The position numbers and the translations under genes are program-made. From Bacteroidia bacterium (lineage in GTDB: Bacteria; Bacteroidota; Bacteroidia; Bacteroidales; Paludibacteraceae): a stretch of DNA of 64,000 nucleotides. Under the pieces are notes generated by a model, which ran no database searches, was not told where the DNA came from, and saw only the letters and a list, made by a program, of their open reading frames with translations. Below are positions 22,709 through 27,024 of this stretch, one piece after another. The stretch lies in the NCBI GenBank assembly GCA_009929375.1, contig SAAO01000010.1:33429-97428 (forward strand), in the 5' to 3' direction. Within the stretch, counting starts at the first letter, position 1; each line of letters begins with the position of its first letter.

Positions 22709-23482
22709 CTACTCGAAACGTAGGTGCTTAATGGTTTTACTGTTATTCATAAGCGACGACAAAGCTTTCACACCAATCTTAATATGTTCTTCGACAAAAC
22801 TGGCGGTCACTTTTTTATCACTTTCTGATGTTTTAATACCATCTTCCTGAAGTGGCATATCGGACACTAAAAGCAGTGCACCAATAGGAATACTATTGTA
22901 AAAACCGGCCGAAAACAAAGTCGCTGTTTCCATATCGATAGCCATAGCACGGGTTGCACGCAGATATTCGCGGAATCGTTCGTCGTGTTCCCATACACGG
23001 CGGTTAGTGGTATAAACGGTTCCTGTCCAGTAATCCTTTCCAAAGTCACGAATGTTCGACGACACAGCACGCTGCAGGCTAAATGCCGGAAGTGCAGGAA
23101 TTTCGGGTGGAAAATAATCATTCGAGGTACCTTCGCCACGTATAGCAGCACTTGGTAAAATGTAATCGCCCATTTTGTTTTTATCGCGCAAACCTCCGCA
23201 TTTTCCAAGGAAAAGCACAGCTTTAGGCTCCACTGCCGACAAAATATCCATGATAATTGCTGCGTTCGGGCTTCCCATACCAAAGTTTATAATGGTAATT
23301 CCATTGGCCGATGCATTAATCATATTTCCATCGCGGCCCAGCACAGGCACATTGAACCATTCGGCAAAAAGTTCTACATAATTATTAAAGTTAGTCAGCA
23401 ATATATATTCCGTGAACTCATTCAGTGGGCGTTTTGTATAACGGGGTAACCAGTTTTCGACAATTTCTCTTTTAGTCTTCAT
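22709..23482 (-). CDS. amn: AMP nucleosidase (short form)
   Basis: Cleaves AMP to adenine and ribose 5-phosphate. At 257 residues from MKTKREIVENW it corresponds to the nucleoside-phosphorylase-fold catalytic domain alone; E. coli Amn has 484 residues with an extra N-terminal regulatory domain. Typical segments are NGITIINFGMGSPNAAIIMDI, VLFLGKCGGLRDKNKMGDY, AIRGEGTSNDYFPPEIPALP and AMAIDMETATLFSAGF with the catalytic Glu. The short form is usual in Bacteroidetes. Divergent from the HsdR-N protein with a 93-bp gap. Confidence 0.9.
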   Translation of the reverse strand: MKTKREIVENWLPRYTKRPLNEFTEYILLTNFNNYVELFAEWFNVPVLGRDGNMINASANGITIINFGMGSPNAAIIMDILSAVEPKAVLFLGKCGGLRDKNKMGDYILPSAAIRGEGTSNDYFPPEIPALPAFSLQRAVSSNIRDFGKDYWTGTVYTTNRRVWEHDERFREYLRATRAMAIDMETATLFSAGFYNSIPIGALLLVSDMPLQEDGIKTSESDKKVTASFVEEHIKIGVKALSSLMNNSKTIKHLRFE

Positions 23483-23575
23483 AAATCTCATTTTATTTAT
23501 GTGTTAGAATTTTTGTATTTTCGCATTTGCTATTCAACGCTATTAAGAAATACACCAACACAAAAATACTAAAAA

Positions 23576-24037
23576 ATGTGGCAATTAAATCTCCCGTTGT
23601 ACAATTTTCGTATAAAAAATCAGAACGATAAACAATTTATCTTCGATGCCCAGCGACGAAAATTTGTATCACTCACCCCAGAAGAATGGGTTCGCCAGCA
23701 TTTTATACGTTTTCTGATTGAAGATAAAAAATTCCCCGCCGCATGGATTGCCATTGAAAAACAGCTGAATATCAATGGCATGAAAAAACGATGCGATGCC
23801 ATTGTGTACGATGAATTTGCAAAGCCACTGGTGCTTATCGAGTTTAAAGCGCCCGAAGTGCCCATTACGCAGGCCACTTTCGATCAGGCAGTGGTATATA
23901 ATCTGAAACTGAATGTAAGTTTCTTTATCATCAGCAATGGTTTGCAACATTATGCCTGCAAGATTGATTTCGAAGCAGGAAAATATCTTTTCTTTCAGGA
24001 AATCCCCGATTTTGCCTCCATCTTATCTGCTATTTGA
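23576..24037 (+). CDS. HsdR N-terminal-domain-like PD-(D/E)xK protein
   Basis: Stand-alone protein of 153 residues resembling the N-terminal nuclease domain of type I restriction HsdR. The PD-(D/E)xK layout is visible: Asp74 in RCDAIVYDE, then Glu89 and Lys91 in VLIEFKAPE, with a conserved Gln in TQATFDQAV. There is no helicase domain and no hsdM or hsdS nearby, so it is not a restriction system. Homologues of this size sit near holA in many Bacteroidetes, which suggests a housekeeping DNA role. Activity is inferred only. Followed by a 390-bp non-coding region. Confidence 0.85.
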   Translation: MWQLNLPLYNFRIKNQNDKQFIFDAQRRKFVSLTPEEWVRQHFIRFLIEDKKFPAAWIAIEKQLNINGMKKRCDAIVYDEFAKPLVLIEFKAPEVPITQATFDQAVVYNLKLNVSFFIISNGLQHYACKIDFEAGKYLFFQEIPDFASILSAI

Positions 24038-24083: not shown

Positions 24084-24109
24084 GTTTTTATGTTTTGCAA
24101 CATAAAAAC
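24084..24109. promoter_or_regulatory. Palindrome 1 (ATGTTTTGCAACAT core)
   Basis: GTTTTTATGTT-TTGC-AACATAAAAAC: perfect 11-base arms and a 4-base centre, with no T tail, so operator-like rather than a terminator. The 14-bp core differs from palindrome 2 only at its two central bases. Confidence 0.6.
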
Positions 24110-24239
24110 AGGCATTTGTAACATATTTGTAATATGTCAGACTTTACATATATACATTTGATTAAGTGCAACTTACATTCAATATAGTGAAAATCTATAG
24201 ATATATTTCTAACAAAAAATCATTTTTTAGCTCAAAAAG

Positions 24240-24272
24240 TTTGGATTATATGTTTTAAAACATGTATTTTTG
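24240..24272 (+). promoter_or_regulatory. Promoter with embedded palindrome 2 (ATGTTTTAAAACAT)
   Basis: TTTG (24240-24243), a 21-bp spacer and TATTTTTG (24265-24272) match both Bacteroidetes promoter elements. The spacer contains the perfect 14-bp palindrome ATGTTTTAAAACAT (24250-24263), where a bound regulator would block sigma contact. Drives the secreted protein pair with a leader of about 145 nt. Confidence 0.75.
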
Positions 24273-24423
24273 CATCGTCATAAAGAAATTATTTATATGA
24301 CACAGTTAACTCGAACAAAGAAATACCATGATACGCGAAAAATCACATGGAAATTCTTTGTTCGTTTCGTTTTTTAAAAGGTATATAAAAAAGATTGTTT
24401 TGAACTTAATTAAAATGAGAAGT

Positions 24424-24786
24424 ATGAAAAAGGTTTTAGTTACATTGCTTATTGCTTTTGCAAGCGTTTCAGGCTCAATGGCCATGGAACTGAATGAATA
24501 CAAGGTATTCTACAAGCTGAACAATGAAGTTACGTTTAAGTCGCTGAACCGCTATCTGAAATTAGAAGAATGTCAGCAGATTAAACTGAAAGACAAATTT
24601 GTTGCATTAGAAAACGACATCAAGGCTGCCCTCAGCGAAGGAGATGCCGAAGCTGCCGAACAATCAATGAATGAAAGCCTCGAATATCTGCGCTCGGTTT
24701 TGAGCGAAGAACAGTTCGACAAATTCGTTCTTGCACTAAATGCAACCATTAATTACAGCCGCGAAATTCTTTACGCAGCCAATTAA
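24424..24786 (+). CDS. Small secreted protein of unknown function, paralogue 1
   Basis: 120 residues from MKKVLVTLL; signal peptide MKKVLVTLLIAFASVSGSMA. The mature part is predicted mostly helical and charged. It opens with MELNEYKVFYKLNNEVTFKSLNRYL, closely matching ALELNEYKVFNRLSNESTQKSLARYL in the next gene, and both share an L(T/S)xxQ(Y/F)xKxxxALN segment near the end. The two lie 78 bp apart and are likely one transcript. I recognise the type from other Bacteroidales but know of no assigned function. The ORF-track start (24328) would put 32 non-signal residues in front and is rejected. Confidence 0.8.
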   Translation: MKKVLVTLLIAFASVSGSMAMELNEYKVFYKLNNEVTFKSLNRYLKLEECQQIKLKDKFVALENDIKAALSEGDAEAAEQSMNESLEYLRSVLSEEQFDKFVLALNATINYSREILYAAN

Positions 24787-24864: not shown

Positions 24865-25233
24865 ATGAAAATCAGAAATATTTTTACCGCAATTTTTATG
24901 CTGGCCACAGTAAGTTTTTCGGCCAGCGCACTTGAACTTAACGAATACAAGGTATTTAACCGTCTGAGCAACGAAAGCACTCAGAAATCGCTTGCCCGCT
25001 ACCTGCAAGCCAGCGAAGCACAGGCCGAAATGCTGAAAACTGTTTTCGAACAAACCGGAAATAAAATGAAACATGCCATTGAAAATGAGAACGAAGTTGC
25101 TGCTGAAAAAGCCATGTGGTTCAATCTTGCAAATGCAAAAAGCATTTTGACTCCTGCTCAGTACAAAAAATACCTGGTGGCGCTCAACCTGACTGTACAT
25201 AGTCGCAACTATGAGGTTTTGGCCGAGAAATAA
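24865..25233 (+). CDS. Small secreted protein of unknown function, paralogue 2
   Basis: 122 residues with signal peptide MKIRNIFTAIFMLATVSFSASA. The mature protein is a helical, Glu/Ala/Lys-rich domain, homologous along its full length to paralogue 1 (shared LNEYKVF, KSL.RYL, AAE.AM and a closing LT.AQYKKYLVALNLT). It probably arose by tandem duplication followed by marked divergence. No cysteines and no catalytic motif. The motif LTPAQY is reminiscent of LTxxQ envelope-stress proteins (Spy/CpxP), but the similarity is too short to claim. Closed by a terminator. Confidence 0.8.
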   Translation: MKIRNIFTAIFMLATVSFSASALELNEYKVFNRLSNESTQKSLARYLQASEAQAEMLKTVFEQTGNKMKHAIENENEVAAEKAMWFNLANAKSILTPAQYKKYLVALNLTVHSRNYEVLAEK

Positions 25234-25259: not shown

Positions 25260-25299
25260 AGACGGAACTTTCTCTTTATGAAAGCTCCGTCTTTTTTTT
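25260..25299 (+). terminator. Terminator after the small secreted protein pair
   Basis: AGACGGAACTTTC pairs with GAAAGCTCCGTCT, followed by eight T residues. Confidence 0.9.
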
Positions 25300-25391
25300 A
25301 TGAGAGCAACAAAAAACGCTTCAGAAGCAAGCAAATTAAAATAATTTCATGTTTGTTTTTATTACATATTTTATATATTACACATTTTACT

Positions 25392-25399
25392 TACTTTTG
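25392..25399 (+). promoter_or_regulatory. Probable -7 element of the carboxylase operon
   Basis: TACTTTTG matches TAnnTTTG, 90 bp before the carboxyltransferase start. TTTA 18 bp upstream is a weak -33. Confidence 0.55.
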
Positions 25400-25488: not shown

Positions 25489-27024
25489 ATGAATAAAAAC
25501 GAAGTATTCGGGCAAAGATTGAAGGCTTTGCAGGAAATGGAAGACAATGCGGCACACCGTCAGCATTTGAAAGGAAAACTCACAGCCCGCGAACGTATTA
25601 ATATACTTTTCGACGAGGGAACATTTTTCGAACTTGATGCTTTTGTAGCTCCTGCACAAACGCCTATGAGCAGCAAACAATCGAACTTTGGTGATGGTGT
25701 GGTGGTTGGTCGCGGACTTGTTCAGGGTCGTAGCGTGTTTGCTTACGCTCAGGATTTCACCGTACTTGGCGGTTCGTTGGGTTATGCCCACGGAATGAAA
25801 ATTGCAAAAGTACAGGAAATGGCGCTTAAACTGGGTGCTCCTATTGTTGGACTTATGGACTCAGGCGGAGCGCGTATTCAGGAAGGCGTAAAAAGTCTCT
25901 CGGCTTATGCCTCAATTTTCCGCAACAATGTGCAGTCGTCGGGTATTATTCCGCAAATTTCTGCCATTCTCGGCCCGGCAGCCGGTGGAGCTGTGTATTC
26001 CCCTGCCCTCACCGATTTTATTTTCATGACCAATCAGACATCGTATATGTTTGTAACCGGTCCGGACGTGGTAAAAGAAGTTTTAAACGAGGAAATTGAT
26101 ATGGAAGGCCTCGGAGGTGGCAATGTACATGCCTCGAAAAGTGGTGTGGCACATTTTGTTTCCGACGACGAGGAACACACTATAATGCTTATCCGTAAAC
26201 TTTTATCATACATTCCTTCAAACAATTACGAAACACTTCCTGTATCGAACCGTGTAAGCATGTACAGTTCGCGTCAGGAGTTTCTTGATAAAATCATTCC
26301 CGACGACCCAAACCGTCCTTACGACATGAAGGAAGTCATCAATATTATTGTGGACAAAGACAGTTTTTTCGAAGTACACGAAAAATTTGCCCAGAACATT
26401 CTGGTGGGTTTTGCCCGCCTCAACGGAAAATCCATCGGCATTGTGGCCAACCAACCTAAAGTAATGGCCGGAACGCTCGATATAAATGCCAGCGTAAAAG
26501 GTGCACGTTTCGTTCGTTTCTGCGATGCTTTCAACATTCCGTTGCTTATTATGGAAGATGTACCAGGCTTTCTGCCCGGCATTGGACAGGAACACAGCGG
26601 TATTATCCGTAATGGCGCTAAGTTGCTTTACGCATTTTGCGAAGCTACTGTTCCTAAAATCACAGTTATCACACGCAAAGCATACGGAGGCGCATACATT
26701 GTAATGAGCAGTAAAAATACCGGTGGTGACTTTAACTTTGCATGGCCTACAGCCGAAATTGCGGTTATGGGACCCGGAGGTGCTATTAAAATTGTGAACA
26801 AGCATGAACTGAAAAATGCAGAGAATAAAGCCGAAGTGGAACGCGAACTTATTGAAAAATATAAAAATGAAGTTGCGAATCCATATAAAGCTGAAGAGTT
26901 TGGTCTGGTTGATGAGGTAATACGCCCATCCGATACGCGAAATATTCTGATTACAGCTTTCGAAATACTGGCAAACAAACAGTATCTGAAACCTGCACGA
27001 AAACACGGAAGTATTCCGCTTTAA
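25489..27024 (+). CDS. Acyl-CoA carboxylase carboxyltransferase subunit (propionyl-CoA carboxylase / methylmalonyl-CoA decarboxylase alpha type)
   Basis: Transfers carboxyl groups between biotin and an acyl-CoA, probably propionyl-CoA. 511 residues, two crotonase-like halves: GDGVVVGRGLVQGRSVFAY and LMDSGGARIQEGVKSL in the first, MEDVPGFLPGIGQEHSGII, AYGGAYIVMSSK and AEIAVMGPGGA in the second, all typical of PccB/MmdA. Biotin carboxylase and biotin carrier genes follow on the same strand, so the set looks like an ATP-driven carboxylase. No sodium-pump (mmdB-like) subunit is present. The reverse reaction in propionate formation remains possible; substrate is inferred from family. Confidence 0.93.
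   Translation: MNKNEVFGQRLKALQEMEDNAAHRQHLKGKLTARERINILFDEGTFFELDAFVAPAQTPMSSKQSNFGDGVVVGRGLVQGRSVFAYAQDFTVLGGSLGYAHGMKIAKVQEMALKLGAPIVGLMDSGGARIQEGVKSLSAYASIFRNNVQSSGIIPQISAILGPAAGGAVYSPALTDFIFMTNQTSYMFVTGPDVVKEVLNEEIDMEGLGGGNVHASKSGVAHFVSDDEEHTIMLIRKLLSYIPSNNYETLPVSNRVSMYSSRQEFLDKIIPDDPNRPYDMKEVINIIVDKDSFFEVHEKFAQNILVGFARLNGKSIGIVANQPKVMAGTLDINASVKGARFVRFCDAFNIPLLIMEDVPGFLPGIGQEHSGIIRNGAKLLYAFCEATVPKITVITRKAYGGAYIVMSSKNTGGDFNFAWPTAEIAVMGPGGAIKIVNKHELKNAENKAEVERELIEKYKNEVANPYKAEEFGLVDEVIRPSDTRNILITAFEILANKQYLKPARKHGSIPL

Follow-up and report, generated by a model that had tools for sequence, protein, structure and literature searches.

A genus-specific secreted-protein operon with a structured leader and a predicted Cur-type operator within its promoter spacer

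Two nearly identical palindromes lie 160 bp apart (start to start) in front of a pair of secreted-protein genes in a genome of the Paludibacter group, and they raise the question of which regulator reads them and what it does to the promoter that one of them occupies. An earlier note had located both palindromes, and they are found as it described, ATGTTTTGCAACAT at 24090-24103 and ATGTTTTAAAACAT at 24250-24263 (neither assigned to a strand) of the window, the whole 64-kb stretch of DNA that was analysed. Strictly speaking, the upstream one is palindromic in its half-sites only (ATGTT-TTGC-AACAT). The upstream core extends to an inverted repeat of 26 bp with 11-bp arms (GTTTTTATGTT/AACATAAAAAC, 24084-24109), about 50 bp 3' of the stop codon of an HSDR_N-like gene. 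Within the 64-kb window, ATGTTNTNNAACAT matches these two sites only, with 0.09 matches in shuffles, and about 0.002 matches of ATGTTNNNNAACAT are expected in the 383-bp intergenic region. Together with the genome counts given below, these figures rule out a chance origin of the palindromes.

The sequence of the sites points to BT4338/Cur, the Crp-family carbon-limitation regulator of Bacteroides, for which the consensus wwwTATGTTnTAnAACATAwww has been published (PMC3878776). Measured against these 22 bp, the site at 24250 has an exact core with a single flank base off (G at 24264), and the site at 24090 has exact flanks with a centre one base off nTAn. The consensus of the motif is identical to the published BT4338 motif. 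Pattern searches of the 3.87-Mb genome found 13 sites with the strict core ATGTTNTANAACAT where about 0.8 are expected, none of the 13 inside a large ORF, and 25 matches of the looser ATGTTNNNNAACAT against 10 for the reversed control. The motif stands well above background and is intergenic, and the concern that the palindrome might occur at background frequency fell away. As read from the translated flanking ORFs, the targets of ATGTTNTANAACAT include fusA2 (an EF-G paralogue), araDA/galM (two sites), pfl (pyruvate formate-lyase), nanA (a sialic-acid lyase/epimerase pair), and a glucose/galactose transporter. Four FopS sRNA genes are preceded by such sites, too. fusA2 is the strongest activated BT4338 target (PMC6989115), and its site is present with 0-1 mismatch in 25 of 30 genus relatives, mostly 47-48 bp 5' of an TACATTGC-like -7 box. 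Because of the consensus match, the fusA2 and sugar-gene targets, and the retention of the fusA2 site in relatives, there is good evidence that both palindromes are Cur-type operators.

The palindromes 5' of the four FopS-family (RF04319) genes (L059:4193, L049:4150 and L055:3929 on the - strand, L048:8844 on the + strand; the L049 match is slightly under the gathering score) are centred at -71.5 in three cases and at -31.5 in one. These positions suggest that Cur may drive FopS sRNAs, at -71.5. The RbpB/FopS paper calls the regulator of GibS elusive, and a link between Cur and FopS was not found in it (PMC11697453).

Three Crp/Fnr proteins are encoded in the genome (L066, L067, and L068). The Crp/Fnr family protein L066, on C38, is found in 46 of 48 genus genomes, has relatives across the order at roughly 40-69% identity, and has the Crp/Fnr-family regulator 2GAU as its best PDB match. 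Upstream of six L066 orthologues from other families (L101, L105, L113, L117, L119, and L127), perfect or one-mismatch sites lie at 47-108 bp; the L066 genes of the genus itself have a weaker upstream site, mostly with about 2 mismatches. The BT4338 gene is likewise preceded by reported sites (PMC3878776). We regard L066, which is widely conserved, as the likely candidate for the regulator. It had been pointed out that no regulator gene is adjacent to the palindromes, which is true, but a global regulator need not adjoin its target. With three Crp/Fnr genes in the genome, and with binding by L066 being a prediction, the motif might instead be used by L067, L068, or an unrelated factor. However, the motif marks the genes of a BT4338-type regulon, fusA2, ara, and pfl among them, and of the three proteins it is L066 whose orthologues are preceded by sites, whereas the upstream regions of L067 and L068 contain no Cur-type site, so another factor is highly improbable.

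The second palindrome overlaps the core promoter. The reading that it fills the spacer of a full Bacteroidetes promoter was upheld: on the + strand, the -33 element TTTG (24240-24243) is followed after a 21-bp spacer by the -7 box TATTTTTG (24265-24272; Bacteroidetes TAnnTTTG), which places the putative start site at about 24277. According to column statistics, the -33 element is weakly conserved in relatives. The composite ATGTTNTANAACATNTANTTTTG, in which TAnTTTTG follows 15 bp from the start of the palindrome, occurs in 30 of 48 genus genomes with 0 control matches and is missing from all 246 Bacteroidales genomes sampled outside the genus. Nearly all distinct composites (32 of 35) stand ahead of a member of the secreted-protein family. 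In the 36 genus genomes in which the protein was looked for, the family is present in 21 of 21 composite-positive versus 4 of 15 composite-negative genomes (p=2e-6); put the other way round, the exact composite is found in 21 of 25 family-bearing genomes and in 0 of 11 without the family, and G001, G002, and G008 bear the family without the composite. The spacer site is 91% identical between copies versus 46% for the preceding 60 bp, the former value being partly due to selection, because the set was picked by site and -7 box. In a less biased check, an RNA model built from nothing but the leader retrieved 30 copies, all of which follow the palindrome; one of these palindromes has a single mismatch, and one is followed by TATCTTTG as -7 box. 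Conservation upstream of orthologues holds for the spacer palindrome within the promoter and fails for the upstream palindrome, which is mostly absent. A TTTAAC element is also conserved ahead of the promoter, 19-24 bp 5' of the spacer palindrome, in most relatives and is possibly the half-site of another factor or an UP-like element.

On the assumption that position -12 is the initial T of the -7 box, the centre of the spacer site falls at -20.5. The remaining strict sites for which a promoter could be recognised have their centres at about -31 to -75, with two at -31.5 to -34.5, three at -52.5 to -53.5, and six at -69.5 to -74.5. Most of the other sites are found 26-69 bp upstream of the -7 box. 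A location 5' of the -33 element, as at Cur-activated promoters, is not found here (-20.5 versus -52.5 at fusA2 and -71.5 at three FopS genes). The overlap with a promoter may not be unique, because the sites at L048 (nanA), L049, and L059 (both FopS) also have TAnTTTTG 13 bp after the site start; the FopS RNAs of L049 and L059 start further downstream of this possible -7 box. BT4338 acts as a repressor, too, with 140 ChIP-associated repressed genes versus 35 activated ones (PMC6989115), and has been described as repressor of sigH-1 (PMC12596196). A dimer bound across -31 to -10 should obstruct the polymerase, so that a site in the spacer suggests that starvation leads to repression. At carbon shortage, a Cur-type regulator would probably occupy the palindrome between the -33 and -7 elements, and once bound it would keep the polymerase away and switch the secreted-protein operon off, a response opposite to that of fusA2 and the sugar genes, whose sites lie 5' of the promoter.

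The main rival to repression is that Cur activates the operon, be it from the upstream palindrome or through an atypical contact made at the spacer, because close second sites at 41, 51, 52, and 63 bp in some promoters would be centred at about -61.5, -71.5, -72.5, and -83.5, all of them classical positions for class I activation by CRP. The sites of fusA2, a known activated target, and of FopS also sit 5' of the promoter, and the weak -33 element leaves some room for activation from an atypical position. Most promoters, however, have the spacer site alone, a dimer at -20.5 should exclude sigma, and the second site in the window is located at about -180, which makes activation unlikely. Even less can be said for the looping repressor that the earlier note had proposed, which would bind both palindromes and loop the 160 bp of DNA. 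Both sites are truly present, and comparable long spacings are seen in L020 (183 bp), L025 and L080 (165 bp), and L078 (157 bp), but a convincing second site occurs in only about 12 of 35 promoters, at spacings of 41, 51, 52, 63, 157, 160, 165, and 183 bp. By rule, second sites were counted in 13 of 35 promoters versus 5% expected from shuffles and are thus enriched, yet they are not kept as a pair: about two thirds of the promoters are without one, among them those of the closest homologues L017 and L018, which have the promoter site. The long spacings are out of helical register with one another, and operators paired in regular helical phasing were not found among the 35 promoters, the spacings ranging from 41 to 183 bp. 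Crp-type dimers are not known to form looping tetramers. As the motif is, moreover, that of the known Crp-family activator/repressor BT4338/Cur (PMC3878776, PMC6989115) and not of a local looping repressor, looping is very unlikely. For the upstream palindrome taken by itself, the inverted repeat might mainly be a 3'-end hairpin of the HSDR_N-like gene that happens to look like an operator, which would fit its place shortly after the stop codon, the long arms also present in L080 and L157, and L133, where the palindrome lies inside a terminator-like TTAAGGCCAAAAACA...TGTTTTTGGCCTTAATTTTT 52 bp past the upstream gene. Because of this L133 site, conservation of the upstream palindrome may partly stem from a hairpin. 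We nevertheless consider this reading rather unlikely for the window, as 24084-24109 is not followed by a U-run, is not reported by a terminator scan of the window, and matches the full Cur flanks. In L133, the strong terminator-like inverted repeat (TTAAGGCCAAAAACA...TGTTTTTGGCCTTAA) with its Cur-type palindrome stands right after the upstream gene, about 166 bp 5' of the spacer palindrome.

The operon encodes, on the + strand, the secreted helical proteins A (24424..24786, 120 aa, with signal peptide) and B (24865..25233, 122 aa), a paralogue of A with about 42% identity. The start of A was placed at ATGAAAAAG at 24424 and not at the ATG at 24328, because relatives start there; the latter ATG lies inside the leader hairpin. 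Both proteins have signal-peptide-like N-termini, and AlphaFold predicted a confident all-helical core for protein B (mean pLDDT 82), for which a PDB fold search returned no match with E<=0.001. The family is nearly genus-restricted (25 of 36 genus genomes, 1 of 24 others in the order). Searches of Pfam, NCBIfam, and PDB sequences and folds gave no reliable match to a protein of known function, weak matches with E>0.005 being taken as noise. After gene B, a terminator hairpin with T8 (25260..25300, + strand, on which the T-run is read) ends the unit before the carboxyltransferase gene at 25489. Since a promoter box TACTTTTG (25392-25399) lies ahead of them, the downstream genes of a biotin-dependent carboxylase, from 25489 on, probably form a unit of their own. 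On the other side, 23576-24037 and 22709-23491 hold the gene of a protein that consists of a lone HSDR_N_2 domain (PF13588) and, next to it, a nucleosidase-like gene, and these two are apparently operon neighbours in several relatives, too.

Between the promoter and gene A, a structured leader is found on the + strand. Stem-loop 1 (GUCAUAAAGAAAUUAUUUAUAUGAC, 24277..24301) forms the putative 5' end of the transcript, and stem-loop 2 (24312..24377; stem 24312-24330 / 24346-24364), which is followed by GUUUCGUUUUUU, is terminator-like and ends 46 nt before the start codon. In the alignment 3' of the -7 box, the conserved RNA consists of the two stem-loops with a linker between them, and a U-run closes the second stem-loop. 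Seven divergent members have fold z-scores of -3 to -4.6. Covariation analysis counted 19 cells changed on both sides with pairing kept versus 6.4 in shuffles, in agreement with a MAFFT alignment, and 91% of cells pair versus at most 54% with slid partners. With the leader RNA model, 30 copies were found in 24 of 48 genus genomes, each of them behind this promoter, and 148 further genomes of the order yielded no copy. A known Rfam RNA was rejected, as Rfam gave no credible match for the leader, and the covariance models of FopS (RF04319) and GibS (RF04182) found nothing at E<=5 in 24230-24440.

A terminator hairpin with a U-run ahead of a start codon is what an attenuator should have. Stem-loop 2 resembles an intrinsic terminator and stands 46 nt ahead of the start codon at 24424; the leader would thus probably act as an attenuator or give rise to a short RNA. 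Attenuation by a leader peptide was dismissed, as the ORF MTNLIQR is present in about a third of the copies and elsewhere its start is lost or its frame shifted. The literature contained no relevant description of an attenuator of this kind. Alternatively, the leader might not be an attenuator but an sRNA of about 90 nt that brings its own terminator, in which case the protein operon would be transcribed by read-through. Stem-loop, conserved single-stranded linker, and terminator are similar to the anatomy of an sRNA, an antiterminator was not seen on inspection of the leader folds, Cur-type sites precede the FopS genes in this genome, and Cur controls the sRNA MasB in B. thetaiotaomicron (PMC10994844). 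On the other hand, each of the 30 strong copies comes directly after this promoter, and solitary strong copies, by which a separate sRNA family would show itself, were not found away from the secreted-protein operon. In L044, L020, and the L022/L027/L085 group, stem 2, the terminator stem, is lost while promoter and gene are kept. An independent small RNA is thus conceivable but somewhat doubtful.

Taken together, we consider it fairly probable that both palindromes are Cur/BT4338-type operators, that the one in the spacer shuts the genus-specific secreted-protein operon off at carbon shortage, and that a leader terminator follows. Transcripts that are nevertheless started would still have to pass the two-stem leader with its intrinsic-terminator-like hairpin. 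A two-layer, genus-specific starvation switch, in which the spacer operator turns the promoter off when carbon is scarce and the leader chooses between a ~90-nt RNA and the secreted-protein mRNA, is put forward more tentatively, at somewhat below even chances. The kind of operator was already known; the placement of a Cur-type site in the spacer and the leader coupled to it are new. With this locus, the carbon-limitation regulon of Cur would reach beyond gut Bacteroides into the Paludibacter group, for which no relevant description of a Crp regulon was found in the literature. It also offers a candidate for direct repression by Cur in which operator, promoter, and start site can all be predicted to the base, and it exposes a conserved RNA leader that is absent from Rfam and restricted to the genus in the genomes searched.

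Among known systems, the LTXXQ/CpxP-Spy periplasmic proteins (PF07813) are, like the present family, small, secreted, and all-helical and have an L-[ST]-x-x-Q motif in which the Q is invariant, but only 1 of 41 family members here reaches E=0.005 and no PDB fold match was obtained, so the resemblance is weak and would serve as a lead only. With terminator-based attenuators in 5' UTRs, the leader shares an intrinsic-terminator-like hairpin and a U-run between promoter and start codon, whereas neither an antiterminator nor a conserved leader peptide was found here. The Cur-controlled sRNA MasB (PMC10994844) is likewise a short structured transcript under a Cur-type promoter, but the structured RNA described here has no sequence match in Rfam and in every case forms the 5' leader of a protein-coding operon. 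The closest counterpart is the BT4338/Cur/MalR regulon of B. thetaiotaomicron (PMC3878776, PMC6989115, PMC10294740), with which the operator consensus, the key target fusA2, and arabinose, pfl, and other sugar targets are shared; sites 5' of the regulator's own gene are found there as in relatives of the present genome. The three papers make no mention of the secreted-protein operon as a Cur target, and in contrast to that regulon, the site described here sits between the -33 and -7 elements in the promoter of this genus-specific operon.
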